Origin: Blattamonas nauphoetae
Taxonomy: Eukaryota; Preaxostyla; Oxymonadida
Reading direction: 5' to 3'
DNA length: 64,000 bases
NCBI GenBank assembly: GCA_033064195.1
Contig: JARBJD010000005.1
Span: 1-64,000 of the forward strand
The position numbers and the translations under genes are program-made. The notes beneath the pieces were generated by a model. That model searched no databases and had not been told where the DNA came from. It saw nothing but the letters and a program-made list of their open reading frames with translations. Below, piece after piece: positions 1 through 56,865 of this stretch (positions within the stretch are counted from its first letter, which is position 1; each line of letters starts with the position of its first letter).

Positions 1-288
1 GGTTGTTATTGAACGAGAGACTTCCAGAATCCTCGCTTTTCTCTAAGCTGTGTGTGGTTCGAAGTCAGGTGTCATCTGGACGCTGGAAAGGATAATTTGT
101 GCAATTGGATCATGGATGCATTTGTAATGTTCAAGTTAGCATCTAAGTCCGCGAACGAGGACAGAGAGAGGTTTTGTCTGATGAGGTGTTTACTCTAGTC
201 TGTGGTTCCTTGTAACATGTCACGTCGCTACAAATGTATCCTCAACACTATCCACTTGAATCTTCCAATTTCTCGATCTGCGATCTGT

Positions 289-780
289 TCAATCCTTCTT
301 TAGAATCGTGGAAATCGCATTGGGACTGTCGTCAGCGACAATTTGAACCAGCAAGCAGCAACTGTGCCCAAACTCGCCCAATAATTCAGATCGAAGAATT
401 TTGGCAAGAGTATTGTATATCCTATTAACGAAAACAGCCGACTTCTTGATTTGAAGAAGCGTTTGGATATCTTGATGACCAAACTCAATGGCCACAGAGT
501 CGACTGCGCTTAGAGAGCTGATTTAATCTGGTTGACTGGATCCATGAATATTACTCAGCTTCATTGATGCATTCAGGCGTGTTGGAGTGCGATGGGTGTT
601 TGGGATGTGGCAGACACTTGTGTCTTCTGTTTTATTTCTGTGCCAAAGGAGTCTGTGGCTTTGATGATGTAGCAGTGGGCGTGGTTTTAGCTTTGGTCAA
701 CCAACTGATGACGTTTGTTGTGGAAATGATGAAGACGATGGGAGAGAAATGGTCAATAAGATGAAGTGGAAAGCAGACTT
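289..780 (-). CDS. possible coding remnant, unknown protein
   Basis: I do not recognise a family. On the minus strand the frame ending near 289 is protein-like over about 160 codons: an amphipathic stretch (AIEFGHQDIQTLLQ, then SAVFVNRIYNTLAKILRSE) is preceded by a Ser/Thr-rich segment. One in-frame TAA (523-525) interrupts it although both sides look coding. No start codon or splice signal could be fixed. It lies downstream of the anoctamin-like gene on the same strand, so it could be a small separate gene or a relic. The plus-strand frames here are less protein-like. Confidence 0.28.
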
Positions 781-1426
781 TGAGCTGGCAAATGACGTTG
801 TTGTCAAAAAGTGTTCTTGTTGGAGATCATTCAGTGCGGATAGCTGCGATCCTGCGTCAGGATGTTGATTGTAGACTCTCCGATCTGCGACCGAAAGAAC
901 GACAAATAATGAACGAACATAACAGAGAAACAGCGTGAATTATCAAGAATTCCATATTAAGAATATATCCCATGTGGTCGGGCTGTTACCTGGTTTGAAT
1001 GATAGGCTTCGCTGAAAATCTCCAGAACATAGACTCTGTTCAGATATGTTGTCAGTAGGGATGTGTGGATATGCTTGGATAAGCTGAGATGAAAGGACAA
1101 GTTAGTAGTCGACATAAAGAAGTTTGATGTGACGGACTACAAAATAGAGATATGCGAATAGGAAGCTCCTTCTCTGACTCCATCTGGTACGTCAGACCCT
1201 CTGAGCGCAGGTAGATGCTCTGCTGCATCTTAAGCCCGATGATGTCGTCGAAGATGAGGATGAAGCCCACTTTCAGCTTGATCGCCCTGAATTCCGCGCG
1301 TCGATTTGAGCAGATGCAGTCTACAATCATGAGTGCATAAGAAATGAATCGAAGAATGCACAGAAACAAGATAAACGAAGAAAGAAAGCTGAAACCAGGT
1401 GAGATATGTTTAAGGGGTTGGATCGA
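781..1426. other. mostly non-coding, one exon-like block
   Basis: No convincing complete gene. On the minus strand about 1150-1330 reads as an exon-like block (FRAIKLKVGFILIFDDIIG, then LTYQMESEKELP) preceded by a plausible TTGTAG acceptor. I could not connect it to a gene. The rest shows nothing I can name. Confidence 0.3.
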
Positions 1427-1487
1427 TTAGAAGCAAGTTAAAATGTGAAAATTAATACGCACCAAATGAAGAAGGAAAGCACCTTGA

Positions 1488-4312
1488 TTAAGGATGCTTT
1501 TTCTTCTTGAGTTCGGGGTGAATGTCAAGGATTTGCTTCTTCTTCCGTTCTTCTTGTTTTCTGTAGAACTCCTCCATGTCCGTCTTGAATCGCTTCCTCT
1601 CACGCTCCTTCTTATCGTTTTATTTGACAAGGCTGAGCATATCCTCTTACATTTTCTGAAAAGGGAAATGAATTTGAGGAAGAGAAAGTAAGTCACCTCG
1701 TCCTCTTTGATCGATCTGCGCACCATTCTCGGGACCGCACTGACAGACAGCGCAATCGCCGCACGGACTGCCAGAAACAAGTTCTCCAGTGCCAACGCAG
1801 CAAGAAACTGGATGAAGAAAACAAACGCTGCGTTGTCGCAGTGGTTGGAGTGTAGCCTCCCGTGAAGAGGTCGGTCAGCTTGGCGCGGAAACAGTAATAC
1901 AGCTCGAGTGTGGTGAGCGGGATGGAGGCCCAGATGATCGTCGTGATCGACGTTTCCATCCACGACGTGTTTGGGCGAGTCGACGGGATCGGGTGTTGCT
2001 TTGTGTTGAGCAGCTTGTACCGCGCGGAGAGGGTGTCGAGCACGCCGCTGATGAGAGCCACGAGGGACGAGAGGGGCGAGATCGGAGTGAAGAAGGCGAT
2101 CTGCAGGATGTAGTTCAGCTTGTCCAGATACTGCTGCACGTAATCGTACTTGCCTTCGACTGCTCAAACTCGACTTCCGACATGCGTTTGTTGTACTCGT
2201 TCTCGTACTCCTGAACTCCCTCCGCTTCTCCCGCAGCTCCAGCATCAGCTCGCGTGGCACCACAGTCATTTTGGTGGACTGCCTGACCTTCTTCTTCTAC
2301 TTTTCTTTCTTCCCCTTCCGGGCCCCGCACGTCGTCTGGCTGTCTCCCCATTGTGTTCAGCCTGCTTTGTGTCTGGCTATACAGGTCTTGGCTCATCAGG
2401 TCCATACCGGGTGTTGGGTGTTGAAGCGCGACTGGTCGTCGTCCAAGTTCTTCACAGCGCCCTCTTCTTCCGTTCGTAGTGTCGTGTTTGTGCTCGTCTC
2501 CACACAGGACACTCCTGATCAGATTGCCAATGACAGTGTGTCCGAGCCCTCTTCAGGAACTGGAGGATGAGGAGGATGTTCGCACGAAGAGTGAGCTGCT
2601 TGAAGAGCTCGTCCTCGTTGGACGCTCTTCCCAGATCGGCTCTGGGCAAGATGATGAAGAACGAGAACGACGAGTTCACCAGCAGAAACACAACCATCTT
2701 CATCGTATACCACAATTCGTGCTTTTCCGACCGTTTGTGATTCTCAAACTCGGTCAGCCACACCGCCACTCGTCCATACAGTGACCACAGTACCATCTGC
2801 AGCACTCCGTTGATCAGGCCAGGCTTGCATCGGACGAGGAACAGTACAGCCTCCGAATCGGCCTGACATGAAATGTGCTGACAAGGTCTGCCTCGTAGAA
2901 CACAGTCGCCCACTGCCCCGCAATCGAGAGAGCGAGGAAGATGGCACTGACGATCCAGCTTACCACCGTCCGACACACTTTGAGTCGGGTGGGTAGACAC
3001 GTTCGGTGGCCGGTGATGTCTGAGAACTGCATCTTCCGATGAACACGGGTCGGATCATGTCTGGCTCGGTTGGTTTGAGGGAGTTTGTGTCGTACAGGCT
3101 GCGCGCGTTCTTTCGGCGCCAGAGACGGTCGAAAATGGAAGACCGGACGAAGATGATGACAACATCGACGAGCTACGCAATTGTTCGTGCAGTGCCTGTC
3201 CTGTCCACCTGGTCGAGGACGAAGACGACGATCCCAACCAATGCGAGGATGGAGAGTGACTTGATGAGGTATTCGTTGAACGCGAACTGTGCTGCAACCC
3301 TCTCAACCGAAATAGCTGGCAAGTGCATTGGGTGGCGTTCCTAGCCCGAACTTGTACCACTTCCACACCGACTTGAGGGATGAGGCTGTCCCCAAAGGGA
3401 ATGTCTCCAAATTTATCGTCGTTGGTAACCTCTATGGAAGTGAGGAGCGACCAGGCAAGTCACTTTCGCTCGGAAGGGTAGAAAAACACATTTGGCCGAT
3501 CAATCCCCGGAAAATCTTTCTGTGCTGAACGGTGAATCTGATGATGCCGGTGTCATCTTCGTTCGTGACGAACTCTTCTTTGAGAACCTTTTGATGTGGA
3601 GACGTTCCGCTTCGATACACAAGGCCTCAAATATGGCAGAAATTCGAAGAAGAATGTTCTTTCCGTCAACGCTCTTCTGTTCGTCGAAAGCGATTCTTCG
3701 GTCTGCGAGCTTGGTCATGATGAGCTGCTTGACTTCTCTCAATGTCTTTGCTGGTCTTCTGCTTCGACTTGGAAAAGAGTGCCACCTCGTTGACATCATC
3801 GTTGTTTTCAGTTTGTGCGACCTCTGCCATTTCAGCCTCTTTTACTGCTTTTCGTACTTTTGGTCTGTTTGTTCTCGTCGTTCTCTCGACTGTTCCAGCC
3901 GGATCTGTGCAATCTCGTCGTCAACCAAGTCTCCAGCACTTTTGTTAGCATCGCATTCGAGGTTCTCCGGAGGTCTACCACTTTAGCACAGACGTTCGAG
4001 CAGGCGCTTGATAACGTGTCTGTCTTCGGTTTTTCTTTAGATTTTTCTTCTGGATATTCGAGATGAGAATGGATGTGATGAGTGAGAGAATGCGGGTAGA
4101 GAACAGAAGATTCCATACGGCTGCCTCTTCAAGGATTTTGTCTCTTTCTCTTTGAACGATGGATGCTCTGTATTTTCAAAGACCAACATATAGTCAACAA
4201 TCTCAATTGGCTGTGAAGCTTCGTGGAGTTTGAGAAGATCCTTCAGCTCGACATCGTCTGCATTGGTGAGAGCCTTCGGGAACGGGTGGTTAGCGTGTGA
4301 TTGGAAGAGCAA
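1488..4312 (-). CDS. anoctamin / TMEM16-like membrane protein, frame broken
   Basis: TMEM16 proteins are dimeric multi-pass membrane proteins working as Ca2+-activated chloride channels or lipid scramblases. Family signatures occur in the right order on the minus strand: N-terminal dimerisation domain (IVDYMLVFEN near 4170; FDEQKSVDGKNILLRI near 3660), the first-helix motif around SYFG followed by ERVAAQFAF (about 3310), the RLWRRKNA linker with RPVFIG (3050-3150), WLTEFENHKR and FLLVNSSFSFF (2650-2760), then KYDYVQQYLDKLNYILQ (2110-2150) and a charged C-terminal tail. At least three junctions need a 1-nt change, all beside short homopolymers (near 3735, 3305 and 2154). Two in-frame TAA codons lie at 1647-1649 and 1620-1622. 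A 41-nt GT-AG intron at 1696-1656 and one ending near 4055 are likely. The first ATG is unresolved. Family call firm; gene intactness uncertain (assembly errors or pseudogene). Confidence 0.8.
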
Positions 4313-5055
4313 AATGAATGAATGGAAAATAATGAAGACCGAGAGATAAAAACTTTGACGACGAGTGGAAGGGTTCGAAGGGTATCAATCCAGAGATGAC
4401 CATATTTGGCCTCCTTTATGATTCACTTCATGACCAGATCCATAGTGACCTAAGTCAGATATGGACAATAAGCAATGCGTAACAAAGACAGACCTGGGAT
4501 GATATGAATGGTGGACGATTGGGTACCCTAAAATCTGAGATTGAAGTGAGATGACGAAATATATAGAACAGACTGTTTCCAGGATACTGATGGCCAATTA
4601 ATTCATGACAAAACTGCAGTAGACAGACAGCGAAATCGGAAAACACCCTTTTCAGGAATCCTCGGACATAACATCACGATTATGGTTCGATCACACTACA
4701 TTTGTCAATAGAACAGACTTGGAGATCAAAACATCAAGAATCTCAATTAAGAAAAACATACAATCTCAATTCGTGAAGGATTTACGGATTTTCGGAAATT
4801 CTCATTTTAAGGATGTGAGCTATGATGTCAAAAATATTGTCCCAGATGGCTGAAGAGCGCGTGTCCATTAGGATGACCGTGTCTCAGTCTCGATCTGTTG
4901 TCAGAACGAGAAGAAGACACAGATGGACAGGACGACGAGATCCTGAAGAGGCAGAGAGAGACAATGAAGAGAGAGGAGGAAGAAAGATGGCAGAAGAGCA
5001 ATAACGATGAGAAGAGGAGAAGAAACACAAACCACATTCTCGATGAAGTATTCCT
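4313..5055. other. spacer between two minus-strand genes
   Basis: Mostly AT-rich sequence with no supported gene between the anoctamin-like gene and the coiled-coil gene. From about 4880 a purine-rich stretch gives Glu/Arg-rich translations on the plus strand, probably low-complexity sequence or the 3' part of the coiled-coil gene. Confidence 0.4.
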
Positions 5056-7812
5056 TCATTTTGAACGTTTCGAAGCATTCGCTGATCCTTCACATCTAGT
5101 CGAGAACGCTCTTCTGCCCATCCGTGTTCTCGTTGGCGGCGGTGAGCGAAGCGACGGTGCCGACTTGGCTGGAAATGTATTTGTTGAACTTGCGAGGCCT
5201 GCTTCGACCACTCTCCGCTCCATCTCCTTCTGCTGCTTCTCCACGTCGTGTTCTGTCACCGGCTGCATGTTCCGCTTCGATCGTTGTTTGCGAGGGGTCA
5301 TGCTGGGCACGTGCTTGGCGGGCGAGAGGGTGCGAGTGACAGCTTCTTTCCCTCTTCGTTTTGGCTGGCTAAGCAAGAGTGGGAACTTGGAGTGGCTGGA
5401 TTGTCGTTTGGGACTGCAGATCGCTTCGGGTCCGCCGCAACTGTGTCTTGTTCACTTCCTCACCCTTCTCCAGCGCGTAGGAGTACTCTCTCACCTTTCT
5501 CATGTCACTCTCAGTGAAGTGCATCATATACGATCCGATCTTGTCGCCGATGTCGTCCAAGTAGTGCGGTTGGTGTGAAGTGACGCTGGCAGGCTTGAAT
5601 TTCTCGATTGAGGAGAGTTGTGCAGCTGACTCGCTCACTCCAATACATTCTGTCTGCTTGTCGGTCGTGATGAGCCAGTCTTTGGAGAGAAGGTGCTCCA
5701 GTTCTGCGTTTTGGGCAAGGAGGGAAGAGACCTCGAAGGAGAGGGTGTCGATGCTGAAGGGAAGAAAGGAAAACAGAAAGGAGAATGATTGAGAGAGAAG
5801 GGCATGAAAGAACGAAGAGCAAAGACGATGAATGAGATGAGATGCACACCGCTGGTTGGATTCGTCGAGTGACTGGTTTGTTGCGGTCAGGTTGGCTTTG
5901 AGTGTGTCTCGCCTCAGTCGTGAGCTGATCAATGTTCGTGTGGAGTGTCTCGATGGAATGGCTCTTCTCTTTGTTCATCCCAATCCACTCATCCACAGGC
6001 ATCTGAGTAGTCCCATCAAAATAGGTAAAACTGGGATCAATTGATGTCAGTGCCTAAATTTGGACTGAGATCAAATTTCAACTCTTTTCCTTTGAGATTT
6101 TCTCATTATCACTTCATTAATCATGTTCAATTCACTTCTTGTTTTCACATAATGCTCTTCAATATTTCAGACAGCTCTTATTTCCCAAAAACACGCACGA
6201 TCACAATCACCAACACTTCTTTTCGATGTATTCCTTCATTGACTTTAGTCAGTGAGAAAACCATCAAAGAAGACATAATAACGCATTATCGACTTGGTTT
6301 TATAATTATTGTTGTAGAACAAACTGAAACAGCAGCACCCAAAGTTTGCATTTTCATGATCTATGAAGTGACCATTTTCCTTTTACTTTTTTCCATTCAA
6401 ATATCATATATAAGAAGACTTTTTGAAATGAAAGAAACGAAATGGTATTGTAGGTATTTAGTGGGATCAGATCCGACTGGGATCACTGGGATCAAATCAG
6501 AAGCCTGCTCATCCACCTCCCTCTTCGTCTCCTCCAACCGCGTGTTGTTCTCCCGCTCCATCTCCATCTTCTGCCTCGTCTACTCCAAACTCTTTTCCGG
6601 CGTGTTTTGTCTGTGGCCAGCGAAGCTGCCTCGAACTTGGAACTCTGACATTGTTTCGGTCAGTCGAGCGTTCTCCTCTGTGAGACGAGTCAGTTCGGAG
6701 TGTTCCTCAGCCGAGACTGAACCTATTGTTCGTAGTTCTTTTCATACTTCGCCTTGTCAGCCGAGCGCTGTCGTTCTACTTCGACGAGTGTTGCTTTCAA
6801 AGAATCGATTATTCGCAACAGATCTGCATTCGATGCAGAAGATGCGGATGTGTCGACGAGTTGTTCTAATTCCTGTTTCAGAGATGAGTCGACACTGCCA
6901 TCCTTCTGCTTGACCACTCCAATCTGCTGTTCGGCATCACTGTCCAATTCATTTGGAGAGAGACGGTGCTCTTCGGCTGTTGTTGGTGCTCATGTGAACT
7001 GCCTCGTTGCGACATGTGCATCTGAAGACGTTGTTGGCGGGGTGTCGTGTCAGATCAGCCGGACGAGTTGTGTTTTCCTGTTTGGGTTTTGGGTCCAGTT
7101 CAATCAAGTCGCTGTTGTCAGAATCATCCTTCTTGTCCTCTTCCTTCCGCTCTGGCTCGTCCTGCTTCCCGCGAGGAGCAATTGGTGGGTGGGTGGAGCA
7201 GGGTGAGGGGAAGCATAGCTCGCTTTGGGATCGGAGGAGAGTTGCAACTGTTGCTCTTGTCGACTCGCTGGTCATCTGAAAACACCCTGAGGTGGATGAA
7301 ATGGGGTGATATCTTTGGTGACCTCGCTTTCTGGTGGGCCTGAGGCTGGATCACAAGGGTTCTGATGAGATGGATTCCTGGACCTGCCGGCGGGCGAGCT
7401 CGGTGGTGAGAGACCCTGCAAGAGAAGGAGTGCCGCGACGACTTGTGTGAAGGTGCGTATGAGGCGTCTTCTCCGAGAACTCCTTCGCGACGTCGATTGC
7501 GTGCCTCACTGACTGGCTGTCTGGGAGGTGGCCATGAAGTCGTACTCGGCGGCGTTGGAGATCATCTCGAGCGCGTTGTCCATGTCGCTGTACCTCATCA
7601 GTCCCGCGCATCACCAGTCGCACAAGGCCAGATGACGCCCCCACGGGCAAAGGTGGGCTGGCCAGAGTTCTTTGTATAGGATTCATTGACTCGGCAACAT
7701 GTGTTAAATCATGTAAAGAGTGTCCAACATGATCTGAATGGTGATAAAGCAAGTTTACAACACGAATTGGTTGTGTCACGGTTCGTGTGATATTCTCTTC
7801 ATTCATGGACAA
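5056..7812 (-). CDS. coiled-coil protein, unknown function
   Basis: No family recognised. Minus-strand segments in order: a Lys/Asp/Glu-rich segment (7275-6950); a heptad-like coil (QQIGVVKQKDGSVDSSLKQE, 6930-6730); a second coil (ELTRLTEENARLTETMSEFQ, then KMEMERENNTRLEETKREVD, 6720-6490); PVDEWIGMNKEKSHSIETL (6000-5940); and a third coil (VSSLLAQNAELEHLLSK, 5735-5680) with a basic tail. A 96-nt GT-AG intron at 5849-5754 rejoins the frame in phase (NQ-R-IDTLSFEV). One frame change sits in the A-run near 6737 and one in-frame TAG at 6580-6582 is flanked by coil sequence on both sides. A 422-bp candidate insertion lies at 6040-6461. The exons 5' of 7275 are uncertain. Probably cytoskeletal or scaffold-like, but that is only a guess from the coils. 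Confidence 0.55.
6040..6461. mobile_element. candidate AT-rich insertion in coiled-coil gene
   Basis: A 422-bp AT-rich block separates two stretches of the coiled-coil gene. It is flanked by TGGGATCA on both sides (6032-6039 and 6462-6469), and dropping it with one copy joins the host frame (GSDP to SFTYFDGTTQMP). I see no terminal inverted repeat. The host sequence itself contains more copies of GGGATCA just to the right, so the duplication is weaker evidence than at the other sites. It is much longer than introns seen nearby. Confidence 0.4.
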
Positions 7813-8145
7813 ACATCGAACAATGGATGACTTTTAATCGTCTTGTGATGTTTGTTCCTCCAAATTCTCAATTAGATCTCCGGAGAACGAATTGATCATT
7901 GACTTTGTGTTGGTGGTTGATGAGCTTGTCGATAGATGTGGTAATCTTCTGAAAAATAGTGGTGGTGATGGAAAGAGGTGGTAGACGGGAAATTAGACAT
8001 CGACGATCTTATATTCTGAGAGAGGGGAGTTGAAATTAGATACCCTTTATTTGAAATTGAGTTCGACACAATTTAAATCAGATGCAGATAACCTAGATAT
8101 TGCAACTCGTTTCTAATTCACCTAACTTTGACTCACTGCTGAGAT
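7813..8145. other. intergenic, divergent spacer
   Basis: AT-rich sequence between the minus-strand coiled-coil gene and the plus-strand beta-helix gene. No ORF or repeat stands out. It should contain the promoters of both neighbours, but no element can be named. Confidence 0.4.
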
Positions 8146-11100
8146 ATTAGGATTTTTAAGTTCTTTTCGAATAAAAACGGGTTTATATTTAAAAACGGGT
8201 TTGTGGAGGGTCTATCACTTCTCGGAAACAGCATCGGCATGGGTTCGGTACGTAGGTTGAAGTTCGGCATGTAGGTCAAAGGTTCGGAATGTAGGTCTGA
8301 GTTCGGCAGGTAGGTCATTGGGATGAAATGGATTGAGACGCATTTTTGGGTGTTGTGAAGATGAAATTGTCGACAAATTTTGCTTTTTGATTCTGATCTA
8401 CTTGTTTTCAACTCGTTTTCACAAAAAAATGAGAGAGCAACAAATGAAGGAAGAGTGAAAGGGAACATATATTAAACATCGTATCAAAATGGTCGAGATT
8501 TGTGTGACTAATGTTGACGAAATATCCTTGATAGTCAGATCTGTCCACTTTCAAGTCGACTCGCTTTTCTATTTCTAGTCGTCAAACTGGATCATAAAAC
8601 GGAAAATGCAGTTAATATGCTATAAATGAGTGACATTGAGGGTGAAAGTTAGGAATCGAGCAAGATATAGTGTCAAATCTGTGGATGATACAATGATCAT
8701 CGATTCTGCTTCGACTATGTTGTACATCTCTTTTTTACATATTACATTCCCTTCAAATTCACCTTTAAGGCGTGATATTTCTATAATTCACATGATGAAT
8801 TGACAATGAGAAAGAAAAACGAAATTTTGACCCATCACGAAAGTGTTTCGTTTTCATTTCTCATCTCCAATTTTCACTCATCATGTCGCAATCCTCCATT
8901 AAATCATCAATTAAATGTGAATATTTGACGTTTATTGTCAGTATCATCTCATAGGAACAGAAAAGTGACAAACTTTGAATCAGCAGGTTGATCATCTGTT
9001 CCATCGAGTTGAATTTATGAATGGATGAAATTTTCAAATCGTGTGTATTTTCACCCTGGTCACTGTATCGTGATCTTTCTGCATTTTGAACTCTTCAATT
9101 TAGCATGAAAAAGGAGAAAGACCTACCATCCGAACCCATGCCACAGCATCTCTTCGCTTTCTCTGTCAAACACAGTCTTTCGCAATGTGTCGAACTTCGA
9201 TGCATCTCAAGCTCTTCCCGACGATGCATCGATGCAGACCACCCAAATTTCAGGCAGCCGATTGGACACCGTTCAGAATGGGCTGTATGGAACCATATTC
9301 CGAAACATCAACGGAGCAGGGACGTTTCTGGGGATGAATATGACAATCTTGAGCAACGACGCCACATATCAGACTTCGTTTGTCAACCAACCAGGCCTCC
9401 TATTTTCATCAAGTCAAACCCTCGAATCAGTGTACTTTTTCTCTCATGTCAAGGCGAGTTGGTCATCGTTCGTCCCTCCCGTCCCAACAACACAACTTCA
9501 GCTTCACAACGACATTTGGTGTGAAGACTCGGCTGACACGTCGAAGTCGAGCTGCATGGCGTATCACGTGTACCCCTTCACAAGCGGAACAGTGCATGTG
9601 TCGGATGGCTGTGAGGACCACGCGTTGTGTGGGAGTGTGGACGCACCGTGTTTGTCGATCTCGGCTGGAATGAATCAGATGAAGGAGACGAAGACAGTGA
9701 CGCTGAAGAATCCGTCTTCTTTGGATGTTGTGTTGACATCACTCGACTCGGCGTGGACTCTCACTCAAGCTTCTGGTGCTGGTCTCACTGTTTCACAAGC
9801 TGGATGCTTTTCTGTTGCTTCGTCCAATGCTCATCTGACTCTCTCCTCGCTTCTGATTTCTTTGGGAACGATGACAGCGGACAGCCTCGTTTCTGTGTCG
9901 GATGGTGAACTGATCATGGAAGCCTGCACGATCGGGGACGGAATCACTCCTATCCCAATCACACTCGGCACAGTTGTTGGAGGGATTCTGACACTCTCTG
10001 GAGCAAATACTCTGAAACTTGTGTCGTCCTCGTCACCGCTCTTCGTTGTCTCTTCTGGAAGTCTGACGATCGGTTCAGCCACATCTCTCACCCATCCATC
10101 AACAGCACGAACATCTGGGGTAGTGCTACGCGCAGTCCGCGTTTTGACTAGGGGCAGTCCGTTATTTTGTGCTAGGGGCAGTCCGACTATGCTAGGGGCA
10201 GTCCGTCCATTGCTAGAGGCAGTCCATCGTTTTCTGGGCTATTATTGGAAATATTCACTCTTTTATTTGAACCATGACCACAATTCTACATATTTTAATT
10301 CAAATTCAGTGAATGTTAAAGGATTAGTGAATTGATGACTGTAAATGAGGGCCTTTGTTTGATCTGACCGATTGTGAGAGATATGAGATGGATACGGTCA
10401 ATCAAATCGAAATGTCATTGATAGAGTAGAGAAAGATGCGATGTAGAGATGGTGTACCATATTACGACCATTTCAAGGTATGGTGAACATCTTTCTTACA
10501 GACTTTGTTTCTTGAAATGTATGAAGGGAATCGTGAAAAAAATTGCAAACATCTTTCATTTCTCCATTTCTCTCCTGATTTTGATGATTAGTTTTGTTCT
10601 CGATCCTCCTCTCTCTCGTCTCTCTCCGCCTCGTTCTCCTCGCAGCCTTCCCTCAACTTCACCAATCCGGCATGCTTAAACCGAAGAAGGATTCGGAGAA
10701 TCTGCAGTTTCCCGCTTTCTTTTATTCTCCCCATCTCCTTCTCTTCTTCGCTAGATCTTGTGGTGTCTCCTCTGGTCTTCCTGATCTTCTCCTCTCTGTC
10801 GACGACATTTGTGCCGCCAACACCCCACTCCCCTCACTCCCTCCCACTCTTCTTCCGCCTCTCGAAATCCGACCTCCCCTCCTCTTCCATCTTCACCGCC
10901 GACGCCATCCACCACAGCTCGCCCTCCATCCACTTGTCCTCTCTCTCTAGTTTTCCTTTTCCCATCCGTTAAGTGAATGTTCTCCATTCCTTCTCGTCCC
11001 TTCCTCGTCTCAGGTTTTTCTTCCCTCTCACACCTGGTCCCAATCTCCTCGAACTCCGACTTGTTCCTCTCTGCCTCCCCCACTCCTTCCAACGACCCGG

Positions 11101-14100
11101 CCAAATGATACCACACATCAAGCGACGCTCCTCTCCCTCCGCCTTCCTTTCTTTCCCTTCACTGGTCCTCGTCGCTTCTGCTGGCAGCACAATGACACGC
11201 GGCAGTTGTGCATAAATTCTGACATGATCAACTACTAAACAGGAAATAGATTTTAGGAAAGAGAGTTGATTGCAGCCGAAAGGGTGAAAATTACGACGAT
11301 AACGTGGAGATATGTGTGAGAGAGTGGTTGGAGATCCAAAACTTTGTGTGGTCAATCCTGGATTGAAATGGATCTTAGCTTGTTCATCATCTCCTTCTTG
11401 TGTTTCATCCTTCATCGTTGGTGCGATTCGGATAGTATTGACACTTTCTATCTCATATCCCTAATTTTCGGTCAGATCTAACAAAATGACCTCTTTCTCG
11501 CCATCAATTTCCAAATCTGCTTGATTTCGCTGCTTCTGACTTCGAAGATGTGTAATTGTGCTCATGGTGCAAATAAAAGAGTGAAAACTTGCACTAGTAA
11601 CCCAGAAAACGACGGACTGCCTCCAGCAATGTCCGGACTGCCCCTAGTAAAGTCGGACTGCCCCTAGCACAAAAAAACGGACTGCCCCTAGTCATTACGC
11701 GGACTGCGCGTAGCAACACCCGAACATCTGCCCTCATCTCGCTCTCCTCTGGTTCAGTCGCTTTCTCGGGAGACGCACTCGACTTCTCTTCAAAGGTGAC
11801 ACTGAAGTCGTCGAGTGTGATTGAGCAGACTGGAGGAAACCTCGCTGTCTCTGAGAGCACAGTGGGAAATGTGTCGAAAACTTCAGGAAATGGGGGAGTA
11901 CTGATGGCCTCGCTGACGAAATCGACAGATTCGTTGTCGATCACTTCCACGACGTTCAGACATTGTTCAGCTGGAGGAAGTGGGGGAGTGCTCTTTGTGA
12001 GCTGTGGAAGTGTCGTCGCTTCCTCCCAACTTATTGTCAGAGTGACTTCGTTCGACACGTGCTCCTCTGGCTCTGGAAAGGGTGGATGTGTGTTCGTTTC
12101 TGGGTCTAGCCTCGCCTCTCTGATCGCTCCTGCCAGCTGGTCTGGTCATCCAACATCACTCGGAGAGACAGAAAGCCTGTTCTGGGGAGAAGATGCGAGA
12201 CTCTCCGCAACTCCATTCAGCTCAGCCACGCTGCTTGTGTATCTTGTCGCTTTCTCTCATCGTGACATCTGTCTGGCCTCTGTTGGACAGGATGTGATTG
12301 GATGTGGACGCTCTGATCTTCCTTGTGAGACTCTCCAACACAGTCTGACGCACCTCTCCACACACTCGACCAACATTGTGACGATCGACGGTTCAGCCAG
12401 TCTCGACTTTGAGCTGGAAACGACGAGAACATCACTGGAGCTGAGTGGGAAAGGAGAGACCAAACAGAACGTGAAGATGGAAGATGGTGGATTGATCACA
12501 GCATCAGGAAACTCACTCGCTCTGACCAATCTTCACTTCTCAACAGAGCTGACCTCGTCCCCTTCGCTGATCTCACTGTCATCGACTGGATCGCTGACGA
12601 TCACGTCGTGCTCCTTCTCTTCATTCACCTGCTCGTTGAATGGGTCGATTGTGTGTGGGAGTGTTGGGTCGACGCAGACACTGAAGTTGTGGGATGTGAC
12701 ATTCAAAGACTGTCTGTCGTCGGTGGGGGCACATTCGGTTCATCTGGATCTCTCTGCTTGCACAAGCACCACACCGCTGCTGTTCAAGTCCCTCACATTC
12801 ACACATTCGACTGCAACAGTCTCGCCTGATGTTCTGGTTGTGGGGAAGGATCTTGGAGGGATCGTTACTCGCTCGGTTTGGGAAGGAACCTTTGAGTCAT
12901 CTTCAGCGACGCAGCTTTGGACCGAAGACACGAAACACAACATTGCATGTTCGCTTCTGGTGTACCTGACAGACATCGAGTCAGCGATCCAAGTGGGAGG
13001 TTCTCAACATGCAGACATCGATGATTGTGGTCACTTCGGAGTGGGTTGTTCGTCGTTGGGAAAAGGGATTGGGAGGATGAACTCAGCAGTGCCGACGACG
13101 ACACTGACGATTGCGTCAGACCTGAGATTTGATGAATTGATTTCGTTTGTGTCTGAGAAAGAAGCGATCTTGACTCGATCTGCGGGTGTTGTGTTCAGTC
13201 GAAGACAGAACGGACGATTCTCACTGACTAAAGGAAAGGTTGTGACTCAGTCGATTGCCTTCACAACAGTGGAAGCTGAGTTCTCAGAGTCGTTTTTCAC
13301 GCTGACATCGTCTGGCTCGCTTTGGATCAAAAACAGCTCATTTGTTGGATTCAAGTCGACATGCGCAGGATCGATTGTTTGTGGGACGGTTGGAGATGGA
13401 CAGTCGCTCTCGATTGATGGGAGTTCGTCGTTCTCATCGTGCTCTGGAGGAGATGGAGGGTGCATGATTGTTCAAGTTGTGGGAAGTGGGTCGATTGGAT
13501 TGGGAGGGAGTTTCTCGAAATGCTGGTCGAGTGGGAAGGGAGGAGCACTGAACTTGGATCTGACTGGAATGACAGAATTGGGTCAGATCTCGTTTGATTC
13601 GTTATTGTTCTCAACAACAGATGTCCCAATAATTTTGAAAGAATCCATCCGTTTCACTGGTCTTTCTATCAAATTCTGTCTATTCTTGTTCCAGGAACAG
13701 ATTAAAGTCCTCAATCTCCACGGATATCTTCTCTCAAAACTTCGTTTCTACACATCCTCTTTTCAAGCACTGACTCTCCAACCTTCATTGTGACCTCACT
13801 GCTCCACCTTTGATAAACTGCGTTCCACTCAGATCGATATACATCAAGTCACATGTGTGAAGATCGGGTGTGCTCTTTCACTTTCTTTTGGAAACTCGTA
13901 GCACCTGAAAGCGGATTCTCTTTTTCCATGACGGTTACTCTTGGAGATTAAGATAATGATGTCCCAATGTCTCTTCACCAGTGTCAAACAGACATATAAA
14001 ACCTGTTTGTTCTCAATTATCTCTCATAATTTCAGATAGACAAAGGAAAGGAGTGTTCAGGACACGATCGATGATGATCTTGCCAGATGGGTGCAAACAT

Positions 14101-17100
14101 GTGTCCAATTCAAGAAAAATACTTGTACTCCTGGGTTCATGCAGAAATCTAATTTCAACTGATAATTCAAGTGCAATAGAGCATTTTCGAGACTATTGAG
14201 TATTTTGCCTCTATTTCTTCACAATACATCTTATCCGTACTCTCCATTGTAGAACCTTCTTTTTCACATTGTTTCACCTCATGATCTTCTCTCATCTGTT
14301 TTTGGAAACAATAAATGTGTTAAATTGGCGTTTCAAAAGTGTCGTTTCTCGTCACGATCGAAGCTCAATTTCGAAACAAACCCCTTTCCATCATATTTGA
14401 GTGATTTTAAGAATTTGGAGAAAAATAAAAAAAGTGAAACAATCCATAGTGTTTTGGCTCTTTTCAAAATTATTGGGACAGATAGAAACTCCGCATTGGA
14501 AGGGTCGAACATGTTTGTGACGAGCTCGTCGCTTTCAGACCTTGCGACTTCAGAACCATTCGTGTCTCTCGCTCCTGCCGCACAAACAGCTCTGTTCGAT
14601 GATTCAGAAAAGAATCTGTTTGTGGGATTCGAATCGTCGGAGGTTCAGGGGAGTCTTCTGTACTTCTGGCACCCCCACACTGCGACATCGGGGTCGGTTC
14701 ATGTTCACAGCTCTGGAGTGGATCATGTGAATTGTGGTTTGTCATCGCTTCCGTGTTCAAGTCTTCGTCATTCGATGGCCGCGATGAAAGATGCGAAGAC
14801 CGTGACACTTGATTCTTCGATGGATATGTCGGGGTTGTTTGTGTCGACAGCTTCGGAATGGACACTCACTCAGTCGTCGGAATCTCACATCCTCTCCCTC
14901 ACTGAAAATGGTCAGTTGAAGATCTACACCTACAGCGACTCGAAGCTAACACTTCTGTCGCTTCACATCGTTGCCAAAGAAGTGACCGCTGATCGAACGT
15001 CACCGCTGATTGAGGTTGGATCTGGATCACTCAGATTCTCATCGTGTTCGATTGGTGAATCGGGTGGAACGATTCCGCTGACGCTGTGCTCAGTCGAAGG
15101 AGGCTCCGTTTCATTTGAAGGCGACACAACGATCGTGAACCCATCTGCGTCTGACCATCTGTTGCGAGTTATGTCTGGTGAGCTGTCGATCAATTCATCG
15201 CTGACCATCACTCACTCATTGTCTCCTCGCACTGTTTCTCTGATCGACATGACAGGCGGAACGACGACGATCAAGGATTCTCTCACTTCGATGATTTCAT
15301 CTCCCCCTCCTCTGACAGTGGGAGGAACAGCCATTCTCGTCCTCGATTCAATCACACACGCATTCTCGAGCGATCTTCCAACCATCGTCGACCAAAATGG
15401 AGGATCAGTCACAATGCTTTCCTGCTCGTTCTTGGATGGAAGCTTAACTGGGTCGTTTATCGCGTCGTGTGGATCGATGAAGATTGTTGACACGCGATTC
15501 ACCGAACTTCGTGCGAAATCATCCTCAAATGGAAACGAAAAGCGAGCTCTGACGCTGACCGTAAATGAGAACGAGCGTGTGGTGATTGGAGACGAGAACG
15601 GAGCAGCTGAATTCCTGGATTGCAGTTCGGATGGAGATGGAGGAGCGATCCATTGCTCGGTGCATGGCGGAGGAAAGTTGAACATAGCCAAAGCGTCCTT
15701 CTCTGGCTGCTCGTCGAGTGGGGTTAGAGACTGGATGCATCTGACGGGCTGGTCATTCGAACATCTGATTGTCGTGTCCAACTGGGAAGTGTCGCAATCA
15801 TCCCTCTCCTCGCCATCTGACGATTCACTGCTCTTTGGTGTGGACCTGGCAAAAGAACCGACATCATCATTCAGAGACATCACTCTCCTTCACTTCCTTC
15901 TCCGCCAAACTTCTCGAACTCCAGATTCTACTATTTTTGTTGGTTTCGATGGCAAAGATCATGTCGGGTGTGGAGACACAGAGGCGACACTCTGCAGAAC
16001 AGTCGAGTGGAGTGTGAAAGAGGCAGTTGGAAGTGTTGTCGATGTCATCGTTACAGTCGGTCGGACTGTTGAGTAATTTGTAACTCTCGTAATCGAGTCC
16101 CATTCTTCATTCTTGTATGATTTCTCGGTTTTACAAAAACAAAGAAACTGAAAGAGTCGTGAAGTTGTGAGAAAGTTTCATGAATGGAAAGAGTGTATTA
16201 GAAGGGGGCTTCGTGGTTCTGGAGACCAAACTTCTTTTGTTTGAGAGGTACTTTTGCTTCCTTTGCTCGACTCTCCCAGGCCTTGTTGTCCGATCTTACG
16301 TTTTCCTTAATCACCTCAAAACGGGATTGAGACACTCGGCATTGTTCTCCATCATTCCCATAGAAGACCTCCAGACCCGCTCGCTGAAAAGCTGCTCTGA
16401 TGTTCTCTCCTGTGGTGGCTGACTGAAATGCACTCAAGAATTGCTGAAGACAACGACCAATTGATGACGAGTTGTCGTCGTATTTGAGACGTGAGAGTTG
16501 TCGTTTCATGATACCGAATGTCACGCAGTCTAGTGGCTGTAGATAGTGCGTGGCATTCGGTGGGAGTGTGTAGAGGGCGATACCAGCATTTGAGAGAGTC
16601 AGCTCAGCCGCTTCTCCAAGATGGACACTGGAGTTGTCCACAAGGAGAACAGCTGGTGCTTTCGGCTTTCGTAGTATGGTTCGCTGTTCGGTCACGTAGT
16701 CAAGGAGAACATTCTCCAACCAACTATCAAATTTCTCCTGTGTAAATCCTCCTTTCTCATTTTCCTCAACCACCATTTGGTCCTCATCCATTATTCCCAT
16801 CTTTTCTAAGTCCTTCTCGTCCATGGGAGCACGCAACACACAGTGAAGGGGGAGTGCTTTTCCATGAAGGGAGATCGCGGCCATCGCAGAGAAACGGGGG
16901 ACAGTTTGCGGAACTGGAAAATGAAGAGGTTTCGCAGAAAGTTCGACAGCACCAACCACGCAATGACCAATCGAGTCTTGTTTAGGCTGATAGCCGACCT
17001 CATCGGCGTTGATGAACAGAAGTGGATGAACCGTTTTGATGAGTGATTCGAGGTGTGTCATATATTCGTCGATGTCTTGAATTCTTACAGCCGTTCTTGA

Positions 17101-18471
17101 AGAAGTCATCGGAGCAGTGGAATGAAGAGCGATCTCCTTCGAATTCAACCGAACAAAGTCATATGGGAAAGTTCGGTTGATGTCCGTTCGATTGGTTTTT
17201 TCGGAAACCCAATCAAATATTTGAGATGGGATCCATGGCTGGCCTCTCAAACTGTCCTCCTTGATCAAATTTAGTAATTCTTCTTTCTGCTTTCGTGATA
17301 GTATGCTGTTTTTCTTTTCCTCTACTGGAACGTAGTAAGAGCCGTGTCGAATTTGGGAGACTTGCGATGGTGTACAACCCACTATATCTGCGATGAGTTG
17401 TCTTGGGATCGTTCCATGTATCGAAGTTTTTTCCAGTTCGATTAGTTTCTTTATCCCGTCAGCATTCGATGACCACGACAGTCGAACAATCTGATCAGCA
17501 TACGTGAATGAATCGTTTCTAGGAAAGCTGACCATCAATTTTGACAGGATGTGGAAGTGTGATACACGAGACTGACTAAGGTCTGGTACTTTTTTCATTT
17601 TCGAAGAAAACAAGAATTCTACAGTTTCGACAATGACATGACCGGTTACAAATTACTCAACAGTCCGACTGACTGTATCTCCAACGGCCTCCTCTCCTCG
17701 CCAGTCGTCATTTTGAACAGTGACCTTCTGATTACATCCGATTCAGACAGGTTGTGTTCATTTCTAGTCTCACTCGAGAGTCCATCCTCAGCCGCAGCAT
17801 CGATGATCAGAGTGGAGATGGACTCCACACTTACTCTTTCTTTATCGTCATTTTCCTTTTCAGTCCCTTCATCCATCAAAAGTATCATCTTTTCTTCTTT
17901 TGGCGTTGTCAACGTTGATTCTTGTCGTGTTCAGAAGACGACACTCTCCCAACCTTTCTTGGTGTCCACCCAGTTATCTCACACAATCTCCAACACCTCC
18001 TTCCTCTCTTCCACTTTCAAGACTTCTGCCTTCGTCCTCTCCGACTGCCACTTACTCTCCATCGAAAACACCACAATTGTTAACAACTCTTTCAACACCT
18101 CGCTTCTTGAAGGATCGTCTTCCCAAATCTCATTTCTTTCTTTGACAGTCTCCAACAACTCTATCAACTCAGACGCATCCCTTTTCGCACTCTCCATCCT
18201 TCCCATTCCAACTTCAGATGACACACCTTCCTTCCACATCTCATTGTCTTCATTCACACCCTCACAAACAACCCCAACACCACAGTTCGTCTCTGTCACG
18301 TCTGAATGTCGCTTGAATCTGATCCTCGTGAATACCACATTCTCGCACTCCAACAGCGGCCTAATTAGGAAGCCGGCAGTTCTTGTGAAATGGACAGCGA
18401 GGCAGCCTCTTCTTTTGCGACGAAGGGTTGTTTGTGAGGATTGCTTTGTGATGGTCTCTCAGTCTAAGTGA
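8146..18471 (+). CDS. right-handed beta-helix surface-type protein, cut by four transposons
   Basis: A very long Ser/Thr/Gly-rich protein of short beta-strand repeats (patterns like GSLTIGSATS, GNGGVL, CSGGDGGC). A unit with a conserved CG...PC core recurs at least three times (ALCGSVDAPCLSI; IGCGRSDLPCETL; VNCGLSSLPCSSL), as in protist beta-helix adhesin-like proteins; a secreted or cell-surface role is inferred. Coding pieces are about 8146-8235, 9151-10117, 11731-13622, 14484-16053 and 17678-18471 (TGA stop). Four DNA elements lie between them; deleting each with one target duplication gives one uninterrupted frame (junctions GNSISS, ARTSALIS, STTDRNSA, DVIVISNG), about 1,750 codons without any intron. 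The 5' end is unresolved: no ATG is found in frame upstream of 8236. Two separate beta-helix genes is the alternative, but the in-frame junctions argue for one. Confidence 0.8.
8236..9142. mobile_element. 907-bp non-autonomous DNA transposon, 8-bp TSD
   Basis: Terminal inverted repeats begin GGCATGGGTTCGG at both ends, extending with mismatches over about 22 bp. The target duplication is ACAGCATC (8228-8235 and 9143-9150). The left arm repeats the terminal motif about four times (GTTCGGcatGTAGGT-like, 8242-8322). There is no transposase ORF. An 8-bp duplication fits hAT-type or several other superfamilies; the TIR does not match the CAGGG ends of the hAT elements elsewhere in this window. It sits inside the beta-helix gene without shifting its frame (915 bp with TSD). 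Confidence 0.8.
10118..11721. mobile_element. 1.6-kb non-autonomous element, 9-bp TSD, MULE-like
   Basis: Inverted ends read GGGTAGTGCTACGCGCAG on the left and GGGTGTTGCTACGCGCAG on the right (reverse complement). Each is followed by several spaced copies of TAGGGGCAGTCCG (10140-10235 and 11600-11700), so the inverted repeat is about 120 bp. The duplication is GAACATCTG (10109-10117 and 11722-11730). A 9-bp duplication with long composite TIRs is typical of Mutator-like elements, but no transposase is present, so the class is inferred. The interior is CT-rich with no recognisable protein. Excision restores the beta-helix frame. Confidence 0.82.
13623..14479. mobile_element. 857-bp non-autonomous element, 4-bp TSD
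   Basis: Inverted ends GTCCCAATAATTTTGAAA match their reverse complement at the right end apart from one base. The flanking duplication AGAT is at 13619-13622 and 14480-14483. No transposase is encoded and the superfamily is not identified. Removal with one AGAT (861 bp) joins STTD to RNSALEGSNMF in the beta-helix gene. Confidence 0.75.
16054..17675. mobile_element. complete pogo-like Tc1/mariner transposon, TA target
   Basis: A 31-bp inverted repeat with one mismatch begins CAGTCGGTCGGACTG (left) and CAGTCAGTCGGACTG (right, reverse complement). TA is duplicated at 16052-16053 and 17676-17677, the signature of the Tc1/mariner superfamily. A single transposase ORF fills the interior on the minus strand. 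It interrupts the beta-helix gene in the opposite orientation; removal restores DVIV-ISNGLL. Confidence 0.92.
16198..17598 (-). CDS. pogo-like DDE transposase
   Basis: A 466-aa protein that would cut and rejoin the ends of the surrounding transposon in the nucleus. The N-terminal half has a helix-turn-helix region (about residues 60-110, IVGCTPSQVSQIRHG); the C-terminal half is a DDE_1-type catalytic domain. The three acidic positions are visible in FINADEVGYQ, VLLVDNSSVH and HYLQPLDCVTFG, each in its family context. The first ATG in frame is at 17598 and the frame ends with TAA. The reading frame is whole, without introns, and the TIRs match, so the element may be recent. Confidence 0.9.
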   Translation of the reverse strand: MKKVPDLSQSRVSHFHILSKLMVSFPRNDSFTYADQIVRLSWSSNADGIKKLIELEKTSIHGTIPRQLIADIVGCTPSQVSQIRHGSYYVPVEEKKNSILSRKQKEELLNLIKEDSLRGQPWIPSQIFDWVSEKTNRTDINRTFPYDFVRLNSKEIALHSTAPMTSSRTAVRIQDIDEYMTHLESLIKTVHPLLFINADEVGYQPKQDSIGHCVVGAVELSAKPLHFPVPQTVPRFSAMAAISLHGKALPLHCVLRAPMDEKDLEKMGIMDEDQMVVEENEKGGFTQEKFDSWLENVLLDYVTEQRTILRKPKAPAVLLVDNSSVHLGEAAELTLSNAGIALYTLPPNATHYLQPLDCVTFGIMKRQLSRLKYDDNSSSIGRCLQQFLSAFQSATTGENIRAAFQRAGLEVFYGNDGEQCRVSQSRFEVIKENVRSDNKAWESRAKEAKVPLKQKKFGLQNHEAPF

Positions 18472-18763
18472 CACATGTTTTCATGTCTTACTCTTACTGT
18501 TGAGGGCCGTGTAAAACATGTGCTGGTTGATTTTAATCATGACATTCATTCTTTGATACTGTTTCTCTTTTCTCTTCTCAGTGATTAGCGGATTGGGCAC
18601 TATTCTGTTAAAGGAGAGTCATTCAGATGCAGTCAATATTGCTTTCTTCTAAAAAACTGCAGTTGAAAAAGAATGTGACCAAAATGGAGAACAGGATCCG
18701 AGTGAACCCATACTTCATTGGTTTTGAACGTCTCTCACAACAAACAGATCAATAGATTTATCG
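18472..18763. other. intergenic spacer
   Basis: 292 bp between the stop of the beta-helix gene and gene A on the same strand. No ORF or repeat is supported. Confidence 0.4.
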
Positions 18764-20710
18764 ATGGCTTCAGAACAGTCTGTTATGAGTGGTGATCACT
18801 TTCCGAGTGCTTTGGACAAGCCACCGAGTTGGAATCTGGTTCGTCGTTTTCGTGTTTCATCTCTCTCGGTCTCAGTCAATGATCTCATCACTTCTAGAAA
18901 CACTTCAATGTGATGATGAAGAAATTATTGTGTCTACTCTCCGAGAGCTGCAGAAAATGGCCACTGGTGTGTGGTTTTGATTTCTTCATCGATTCGTTTC
19001 TGACTGTTTTGGCTGTTTTGAATGTGTTTCAGAAAGTGGATCGGATGACTGTTTTGATGATTGGTGCCCGTTTTTGTCTCCATTGTGTTGTTTACCACAT
19101 TCATCTGGACTTCTGGTCCCTCCTTTTCTCTTCTGTTCATTCTCGCTTCTCAGGGAGATTTGATGAAATTGGTTTCGATTCTTTGTTTGTGGTTTTCTTA
19201 GTTGTGATGATGGATGTCTTCTTTACTTACTTTCAGATTCGAAATCGCCCTCGTTCGTGCGATTTTCGATTTCCTCTGAAATCCCTTCTTTTGTGATCAC
19301 GCAATTTCGAGATTGGTCAAACTGCGCAGCATTGGAATCAGTGTGTTTCATTCTTGCTTCTTCTGATTTTATTTTCAGTGTTGTTCCTGCATGGAATCAC
19401 TCTGCTTTGAACCTGAAATCATGAACTCGCTTTTTCTTCTCCACAAGGACTTTATCATTTCTACGTTCAAACAATTTGGAGAATCATCACCTCCACCTGC
19501 AGTCATCACCACTTTAGCTCGGATTTCTCTCTTTCCTCATCTCAGAATCAGCCATAATTCTCAAATAGCTCTTTACAATGTCATCGAACGAGATCCACCT
19601 GCTCTCACACTTCTGCCCTCACCGATCTTCCCATCATCTTGCTCATACCAACAATATTCTGAACTCTCATTCCTGACCGCTCTGACAAAGCAATGCCGAA
19701 TCGTTTTCTCCGAATTCCAATCAAATCTCCCAACCAATCCTTCAGACATCCAACAATACACCCAGCTGACGAAGGATGATCCGTATCTCATCACACGTGC
19801 CCTTAACTGCTGTTCATATTCATCTGGACTCCCAAATCTTCTTTTGAGTGCAAATCCACCGATTGAAGTGTGTTTCGACTCTTCTCAATATTTCTTGTCA
19901 TTTCAGGTTGATTTGGAGATTATCAGAGAATTAATTCTCTTTGTGAAAGAAGGTCTCACAACGATTCTCACGAACATTTCAAACATCGACAATCTCATCA
20001 TTTCTCTTCTCTCCGACTCTTCTCCAACCACTCAGTTGGTTTCTGGAGTTGACCCGCAAATCGCTGACTCTCTGCATCAGCTTCGGGACGATTGTCACAA
20101 ATTTTTGAATGATTCGTGGGGTTCCATCGTCGGAGTGACATTCAACATCACCGATCCCCACAGATCATCCTTCCAACAAGTCATTCTCGACGATCCATCC
20201 TTCACTGACCTCATTCTCAACTCTCTCCAACTCACTCGAAATGGAATCAGCAATAAACTGTTAAGAGCCATTAGAAACATCATTATCTCGTTTCCATTGA
20301 TAAAGGAACAGTTCATGGCAGCGAATCTCGTTGGGAGGATGTTTGCAACCGTCGATTTTGTTTCTTTTCCTCTCTCGGAGTCCGAAACTCTTTTTGAACT
20401 TACCATCTTCTTCGCCTCCATGTTCATCCCGATTGGAGCTGATGAAGATGCACAAATGCGAACGATGGTCGAGATGGAGTACGAAGACAATTTTCAAATC
20501 GTTTTCCTAAGCTTGCTGAACAGTACTTACGAATGGAAGCGAAACAAGCCTGATCGGCAGAAGAGACGAGACGTTCTTTATCGAGAAGAAGGGTGGGACG
20601 ATACAATTGAACTTCGAGTTGTGGGGATGGAGAAAGACACACATCGGGACGTTCAAAGTTTTGCCAGAGAACTCAGAATCGAGCTGAGATTCAATACGGA
20701 TCGGCCATGA
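18764..20710 (+). CDS. gene A: multi-intron protein, paralogue of gene B
   Basis: Function unknown; alpha-helical, no signal peptide or motif recognised. The start ATG 18764 is conserved in gene B. Exons 18764-18853 (or to 18838), 18876-18966, 19033-19115, 19154-19184, 19237-19340, 19379-19867 and 19907-20710 join in phase: SALDKPPSW, LLETLQCDDEE, FDDWCPFLSPLCC, KSPSFVRFSISSE, then CCSCMESLCFEPE. The introns are 22 (or 37), 66, 38, 52, 38 and 39 nt, all GT-AG with CAG acceptors. The same intron set with the same lengths is found in gene B, which supports this model. The C-terminus after IGADE diverges from gene B. Stop TGA. Confidence 0.78.
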
Positions 20711-29060: not shown

Positions 29061-29403
29061 AGGTTTGGGTTGGAGTGGAGTATTATGGCAAAGTGAGACT
29101 TGAGTAGTGACTCGTGAAGGAAGAAGGGCAGGCATGACTCGGAAGAGGAAAGAGAGTCGGGAGTACGGAATGGAGAGAGTGCTGAGTTGGTAAGAGAACT
29201 CGCAATCAGGGCTTTCCAAAATGGGAGCCATGTTCGAAAATAGCTATCAAAAACTGAGAAAATGGTTGTCTAATTTAGAGTAGGCTATCATAGGGAGCCG
29301 CAGACTATGTGTTCGGCAGAAAGGGAGAACGAGAGGTTTTGATCGAACCCAACATTAAATCAAAGTACCAGTTCTTTTTTCTCTAATCTTGGAAGTTAGT
29401 CAT

Positions 29404-46108: not shown

Positions 46109-46498
46109 CAAGGCAGTCTGTCGCACGAGGCTTCAAAGTGTATGGAAAAGGCATCGGTTAGGGGATTGTGGGAACTACTTTCAAGCCTGTCGTTGGAATA
46201 ATCAATCTTGCATCGAGGACGATCGAATTGATTATGATTCAATTGCTTATCACTTCTTATTTTGGCTTGTTGTGATAATATTTGCCTGAATTTCACCAAA
46301 TGCATTCAAAGAGGCGTGGTATTCATCAAACATCAGAGAGAGATGAAGTGATCAAACCTCAATACAGAATTTTTGGAGAACACTCTTGCTACAACACAAG
46401 TCTACGCAGTTTTAATCCAATTTTTCTTAAATTTCATGTACTCGTTCTTTGTTCTCTTTCATTCTTCGGGTTCATGATCAATTTCGGGTTATAGGCAG
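46109..46498. other. non-coding stretch before MITE
   Basis: 390 bp, AT-rich, no supported ORF. Still within E1. Confidence 0.35.
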
Positions 46499-46500
46499 TA

Positions 46501-47770: not shown

Positions 47771-47795
47771 TACTATCATTCTTTTCCTTTCAATA

Positions 47796-56380: not shown

Positions 56381-56865
56381 TGTCGTCTGCGTCTATGCAA
56401 AGTCTCGACAAATCAGACAAGCCCAGCCGCCTGAATATTGCGAGGCAGTGGGTGGGTTCGAGTAGTACGTGATGAAGGGAAGCGGAAGTGGGATTCGGAG
56501 GGAGAGAGGGTGTGTTGGGAAGGATGAGATTGTGCGAGCAGTTCTTTCAGAGACTATGGCACTCGCGACAGAACGAGGAGACGAGGATTGAGAAGGATAG
56601 GAATCAGAGCTAGATCTTTCTTTGTTCATTGATTTTAATCATTTCACACATTCTTTGATTCAGATTTTCTTTTCTCTGTTCATCGATTTGCGGATTGGAC
56701 ACAATTCTGTTAAAGGAGAATCATTCAGATGGAGTCGATATTGCTTTATTCTGAAAACTGCTGTTAAAAAAGAATATGACCAATATGAGGTGTTTTACTG
56801 AAACGGAACCCATAATTCATCTCCCACGATTGAGACTCGAAACAAACGGATCAGAAAACTCCTCG
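56381..56865. other. intergenic, genes H to B
   Basis: 485 bp. The part from about 56620 resembles the sequence before gene A (TTAAAGGAGA-TCATTCAGATG, then TATTGCTTT-TTCT-AAAACTG), so the upstream region was duplicated together with the gene and may hold its promoter. Confidence 0.5.

Follow-up and report, generated by a model that had tools for sequence, protein, structure and literature searches.

A gene of about 1,928 codons in the oxymonad Blattamonas nauphoetae has been hit by five families of DNA transposons, and with two further elements nested in one of the inserts it holds seven elements altogether. Most of the gene lies in the window, by which we mean the whole stretch of 64,000 nucleotides analysed here: positions 1–64,000 of contig JARBJD010000005.1 (C445; other contigs are named likewise), at the contig start, in an assembly of 88,311,006 bases on 837 contigs. 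The B. nauphoetae assembly is described in its publication as comprising 879 contigs and 88,537,989 bp, with 44.96% G+C and 25,221 genes, and as built with long reads and polished with Illumina data (PMC10703272). The recent disruption of this one family member by insertion is real and unusually dense, and it very probably represents a recent insertional knock-out of one dispensable member of a large B. nauphoetae gene family. The freshness of the damage is most likely the reason why the frame is still clean; this would be an ordinary process, strikingly displayed, with no evidence of insert removal.

Inserts, host pieces and the missing 5' end

Four inserts interrupt the coding sequence within the window, with termini and target-site duplications (TSDs) exactly as placed in an initial annotation made from the sequence alone. 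E1 (8236–9142, plus strand; 907 bp) has terminal inverted repeats (TIRs) of ~22 bp and is flanked by the 8-bp TSD ACAGCATC at 8228–8235 and 9143–9150. E2 (10118–11721, plus strand; 1,604 bp) ends in long TIRs (10118–10413 and 11426–11721) and is flanked by the 9-bp TSD GAACATCTG; its four near-identical copies represent three sites, with C445 and C548 counted as one, and a 9-bp duplication is found at all three. E3 (13623–14479, plus strand; 857 bp, TIR ~25 bp) lies between copies of the 4-bp TSD AGAT, and 4-bp TSDs likewise flank the six other copies read. E4 (16054–17675, minus strand; 1,622 bp, TIR 33 bp) lies in a 2-bp TA duplication and carries a transposase open reading frame (ORF) at 16198–17613 on the minus strand, which matches Pfam DDE_1 (PF03184) at 36.6 bits against a cut-off of 22; among 4,732 candidates, no relative of this transposase was found at an E value of 0.001. 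In family features, E4 resembles Tc1/mariner-pogo elements in its TA duplication, 33-bp TIRs and DDE_1 transposase, with no tested difference, and E2 resembles Mutator-like elements in its 9-bp duplication and long TIRs of ~296 bp. With 40 candidates scored per search, copy counts are lower bounds and include C445 and C548: at least 24 near-full-length genome matches at ≥91% for E1, at least 4 at ≥99% for E2, at least 40 at ≥97% for E3, and at least 18 full-length matches at ≥99% for E4.

The inserts leave five pieces of the host gene in the window, all on the plus strand. Piece 1 (8215–8235), to the right of a fifth insert, consists of a TCA duplication (8215–8217) followed by CTTCTCGGAAACAGCATC, and aligns with a C182 relative from EGLSLLGNS. 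Pieces 2 (9151–10117), 3 (11731–13622) and 4 (14484–16053) are open and are 77–90% identical to two C182 genes whose open frames span 2,701 and 2,925 amino acids (aa). In piece 2 the identity is 77–80% over residues 1–102 and 88–89% over residues 96–322; it is 89–90% in piece 3, and in piece 4 it is 86–87% over residues 2–416 and 58–61% beyond. Piece 5 (17678–18471) ends in the family's own stop codon and has 19 near-full-length relatives at 66–76% identity, C548 uncounted. A protein search with piece 3 (8,000 candidates scored) returned two B. nauphoetae proteins, BLNAU_24249 (98%) and BLNAU_22570 (59%). The label of beta-helix protein given initially is unconfirmed: no Pfam or NCBIfam match above the cut-off was found for the host pieces, nor a PDB sequence match for piece 3.

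Removal of each insert with one TSD restores a single uninterrupted frame, as had been predicted: 8143–8235, 9151–10117, 11731–13622, 14484–16053 and 17678–18471 join into 1,771 residues with zero internal stops. The lengths of insert plus duplication are 915, 1613, 861 and 1624 bp, so that two of the four would shift the frame. The relatives confirm these joins to the residue. Joins 1, 2 and 3 are crossed by the C182 relatives without a residue gained or lost, and join 4 is crossed seamlessly by relatives on C81, C312 and C49, all three of which stop at the same residue as the window gene. In the first C182 gene, the stretch around join 1 sits in a separate frame of 312 aa, so this gene must itself be broken or erroneous there; across the stretch read, the second C182 gene stays open. 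We also considered whether the pieces might be separate genes with their own starts, and rejected this, as the relatives hold neighbouring pieces in one frame.

The 5' end proposed initially requires revision. The first 21 to 24 codons of the 1,771-residue frame have no match in the relatives, and they contain no ATG because 8146–8214 are not gene sequence and constitute the right end of the fifth insert, E5, to which the first 24 codons of the gene as initially drawn belong. E5 (4845–8214, plus strand) represents the right-hand portion of a ~3.1-kb element that has TIRs of ~50 bp and the 3-bp TSD TCA; it contains E6 and is cut on its left by E7. The segment 7400–8215 recurs at no fewer than 23 other places at 98–99% and at one more at 97% (C445 and C548 uncounted; best 40 of 145 candidates), and the E5 part 6508–8215 has 22 matches at 99%. 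E6 (5997–6507; 511 bp) is nested in E5 within the 9-bp TSD CTCATCCAC and has copies at other loci. E7 (1–4844) is the right-hand portion of a large, repeated element that sits inside E5 with the 6-bp TSD AGATGG and runs off the contig start; window positions 1–3000 have at least 20 matches at 97–100% (self and C548 included; best 40 of 82 candidates). E5 copies elsewhere are uninterrupted at the points where the window breaks, 4844/4845 and 5996/6508. The initial count of at least four unrelated transposon families is thereby amended: the elements are indeed unrelated DNA transposons with duplications of different lengths, and their number is five direct inserts plus two nested ones.

The remainder of the gene is found on C88. 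A search with the N-terminus of the relatives gave 13 genome matches (29 of 29 candidates scored); C445 and C548 hold none of them, and several lie in short frames (C88, 201 aa; C35, 220, 155 and 232 aa; C82, 257 aa; C182, 312 aa; C17, 455 aa). The C88 match, 85% identical to the relatives' N-terminus, identifies the 5' piece at C88:6965–6420 on the minus strand, which starts at an ATG at 6965 and runs for 182 codons. Beyond 6420, C88 continues with the left 200 bp of E5 (99.5% identical to three other E5 copies), then AGATGG, then a foreign end, and the window presents the mirror image: an E7 end, then AGATGG, then the remainder of E5. The nested E5/E7 junction flanked by AGATGG is thus present on both C88 and C445, three other E5 copies are uninterrupted there, and the left end of E5 is found on C88 and in three copies at other loci (L079–L081). 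At this fifth join, the C88 piece ends in ...GTCGCTCAACAATTATCA and passes into E5, and the window resumes with TCA CTTCTCGG. The resulting codons read ...V A Q Q L S / L L G N S..., and the C182 relatives, with V A E G M S L L G N S and V A E R M S L L G N S, are continuous and gapless across it. The full gene therefore has 182 + 1,746 = 1,928 codons, followed by the stop. Chance agreement falls far short of explaining why all five joins are exact to the residue.

Two further features of E7 were observed. Six of its matches begin less than 10 kb from the first base of their contig (C93, C321, C396, C316, C68 and C179), which suggests that E7 may break the assembly. An ORF in E7 at 2452–3000 on the minus strand has an anoctamin match (PF04547, 51.6 bits).

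Gene family, past constraint and age of the inserts

Many relatives of the gene are single open frames, of up to 4,574 aa. The alignments suggest a mosaic drawn from two subfamilies: up to about residue 1,360 of the joined frame the window gene resembles the C182 genes, and from there on those of C81, C312 and C49. By comparison with both C182 genes, it lacks ~525 codons after residue 127 and ~31 codons near residue 1,385. Over 1,225 codons, the ratio of non-synonymous to synonymous substitution rates is 0.32 and 0.30 between the window gene and the two C182 genes and 0.32 between those two, and the lineage-specific ratio of non-synonymous to synonymous changes is 0.89 for the window gene and 0.91 and 0.74 for the two C182 genes. 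The similarity of both measures indicates that, until a short time ago, this gene was under much the same constraint as the two relatives.

The inserts themselves have hardly diverged. We counted private substitutions, namely those unique to this locus, with a gap-tolerant count for E1–E3. E1 has none; at two sites it differs from all 14 copies of its 98% group, and both states are shared with a 91% subfamily (3 copies compared). E2 has none against two other copies, one of which differs by gaps only, and E3 has one against six other copies. E4 has none, because two copies on C306 score the same as E4 itself, and E5 (6508–8214) has none outside its duplication against two other copies. The total across the five inserts is one private substitution in 6,697 bp, for which the one-sided 95% Poisson limit is ~4.7. 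This corresponds to at most about 4 substitutions in the 5.8 kb gene, of which about 1 in 20 would create a stop; indels would be additional. Indels were left out of the dating because the inserts carry apparent consensus errors; against its sister copies, E3 has 5–7 gaps in C445 and 0–4 in C548.

With one private substitution in 6,697 bp, intact flanks are to be expected whether or not the gene works. The in-frame flanks, read initially as a sign that the gene had not been dead for long, are therefore weak evidence, since they are expected of any very recently hit gene. The observations are best explained by the following course. The family is large, and many of its genes consist of one long open frame; this member was under constraint until very recently. 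Cut-and-paste DNA transposons of five families then entered its coding sequence, each creating its own target duplication, and E5 received two further elements. The inserts would have stayed unremoved, with the flanking frame intact because the time was too short for point lesions. The gene would be dead now, and its relatives would have made it dispensable.

Several points weigh against this account. Five families in one 5.8 kb gene within a short time is a dense cluster. All of the evidence comes from assembled contigs. The physical linkage of C88 to C445 extends beyond any single contig and is presumptive. On C548, which overlaps the start of C445, the host frame is broken by indels, and as C548 has no host substitution relative to C445 in the parts compared, it provides no independent witness of the locus.

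Allelic state, removal of inserts and assembly

The relation between C445 and C548 bears on several alternatives. Over 9.27 kb of overlap, they show 1 mismatch and 29 gap openings. The host pieces differ by 0 substitutions and 4 indels in ~4.4 kb (host positions 15985–16053 lie outside this comparison), and piece 5 by 0 substitutions and 5 indels. C548 shares the four inserts, agreeing with C445 at sites 1–3 in the sequence read and holding E4 between pieces 4 and 5. At all four host indels outside piece 5, C445 is the better match to both C182 relatives, the fit being exact at one and approximate at three, and in piece 5 the C81, C312 and C49 relatives follow the C445 frame gaplessly. As the relatives' frames agree with C445 and not with C548, the indels of C548 are taken as errors of that contig, which appears to be a duplicate of this locus left unpolished. 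Because it shows 0 host substitutions in ~4.4 kb and none in piece 5, C548 was rejected as a separate, independent copy.

Some nuclei or cells of the culture might keep an empty or partly empty, working gene, with the filled allele tolerated. Very young inserts are the likeliest to be polymorphic, and the overlap of C445 and C548 could represent two alleles. Against this, C548 also carries the inserts, and its differences from C445 are almost all short indels at which relatives favour C445, as in an unpolished duplicate. Moreover, no empty allele was found in the assembly: apart from C445 and C548, no match above 90% identity was obtained for pieces 2, 3, 4 or 5 among the candidates scored (best 124 of 1,475, 72 of 1,892, 82 of 1,761 and 98 of 98, respectively). 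We consider such a polymorphic locus unlikely.

Another idea is that the gene is alive because exact removal of unrelated inserted transposons takes place, be it at the DNA level in some nuclei or at the RNA level by a non-GT-AG route. This reading is not supported, no pointer to a removal system having been found here, and it is very unlikely. As for RNA, splicing of the inserts as introner-like introns has precedent, since DNA transposons acting as introns, some adding a few in-frame codons, are documented for other eukaryotes (PMC9860276), and E3 starts with GT while its 3' duplication starts with AG. However, end-to-end GT...AG removal of E3 would retain two surplus bases and so disrupt the frame, and in a survey limited to exact removal, with the element taken out together with one of its duplications, a GT-AG or GC-AG register is present at none of the five sites; E2 has one AT-AC register. 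In addition, many relatives are single open frames, and in the deposited model BLNAU_24249, which spans two of the exact joins, neither join is made and parts of E1 and E2 are treated as exon. The dispersed copies of E1–E3 argue in the same direction, being unenriched in open frames: with clear duplications required, 7 of 38 copies lie between open-frame halves of at least 100 codons each (5 of 35 once the three sites in this gene are set aside), against a null of 21% from random points in the rest of the window. Other thresholds gave 16 of 38 (null 43%) at 50 codons, 5 of 38 (12%) at 150 and 2 of 38 (8.5%) at 200. The 38 copies include this gene's three sites, one E2 copy (L046) in both orientations and several with one flank shorter than 600 bases. 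Taken together, these data make splicing of the inserts less probable still.

Precise DNA removal in a working nucleus, in the manner of ciliate internal eliminated sequences, would need residue-exact joins such as those at the five sites. Plain target duplication yields the same exactness, though, and the five inserts share neither the sequence nor the length of a duplication (ACAGCATC, GAACATCTG, AGAT, TA and TCA), so that no boundary motif common to such sequences is present; they also have near-identical dispersed copies. Oxymonads are not known to have a separate germline nucleus. We find this reading scarcely credible. An assembly artefact, in which repeats were wrongly joined into the gene, might be suspected from the repeat-rich location at a contig start and from the indels of the C445 inserts relative to their sister copies. 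An assembler would not, however, make exact duplications of five lengths with proper element ends, and C548 agrees at sites 1–3 and holds E4 between pieces 4 and 5; of all the explanations, we give this one the least credence. A recent insertional knock-out thus remains the reading we prefer.

The survey of dispersed E1–E3 copies led us to reject a preference of these elements for coding frames (7 of 38 against the 21% null). Two E1 copies, L013 on C37 and L029 on C168, also lie between open-frame halves, of 174/204 and 172/488 codons, and by eye these flanking halves resemble surface-type genes.

Genomic surroundings and comparison with known systems

None of E1–E7 recurs in 18481–64000 of the window (90% identity, ≥150 bases). 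At the 62 loci around other E1–E3 copies, by the same thresholds, only E6 occurs beside the focal family, at 4 loci, two of them overlapping. Other elements are frequent in the vicinity, however: elsewhere in the window, 46497–47774 and 50818–52980 are TA-flanked elements with near-perfect long inverted ends. DDE_1 ORFs begin at 43201 and 51531, the latter (a transposase ORF at 51531–52808) within the 50818–52980 element, and an ORF at 29389–30525 has a zinc-finger match (PF25431, 30.7 bits, cut-off 29.5) and is possibly another transposon protein. A tandem array of 79.7 copies of a 27-bp unit (36557–38703) lies inside an 824-aa minus-strand open frame (36513–38987). The segments 18527–20448 and 56629–58553 are two copies of one sequence, 77% identical, the first of which holds a gene-like ORF at 19391–20710; judged by eye, a similar ORF is split into two halves around an E3 copy on C6 (L004).

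The locus captures several young transposon families of an oxymonad at a dated moment. In the related oxymonad M. exilis, DNA transposons are given as 4.5% of the assembly (PMC8767320). Because the pre-insertion gene sequence is legible and relatives lie in the same genome, the question whether inserts are tolerated, purged or removed in oxymonads can be put cleanly at this locus. The data also indicate that the deposited gene model BLNAU_24249 combines gene sequence with transposon sequence: apparently annotated on C548, this model maps from the last bases of E1, reads E2 parts as exon and stops in piece 3. In the literature on B. nauphoetae and oxymonad transposons, as represented by the titles and openings of abstracts listed, no report of this locus was found.

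Compared with known systems, the gene comes closest to the insertional pseudogenes that DNA transposons produce in multigene families: elements with TIRs and target duplications interrupt the coding sequence of one member, its relatives are open, and empty sites are seen in them. It differs from ordinary cases in that five families lie in one gene that has no point lesion yet, with two nested elements in addition. Introners, as described in PMC9860276, share with the present inserts the TIRs, the short target duplications and the position within a gene, whereas here there is no exact GT-AG register, E1–E3 are unenriched in open frames and many relatives are single-frame. By comparison, the internal eliminated sequences of Paramecium (as presented in PMC3464196) are likewise parasitic DNA in coding sequence, with exact rejoining upon removal, and the inserts described here are distinct from them in having no common duplication and in having near-identical dispersed copies.

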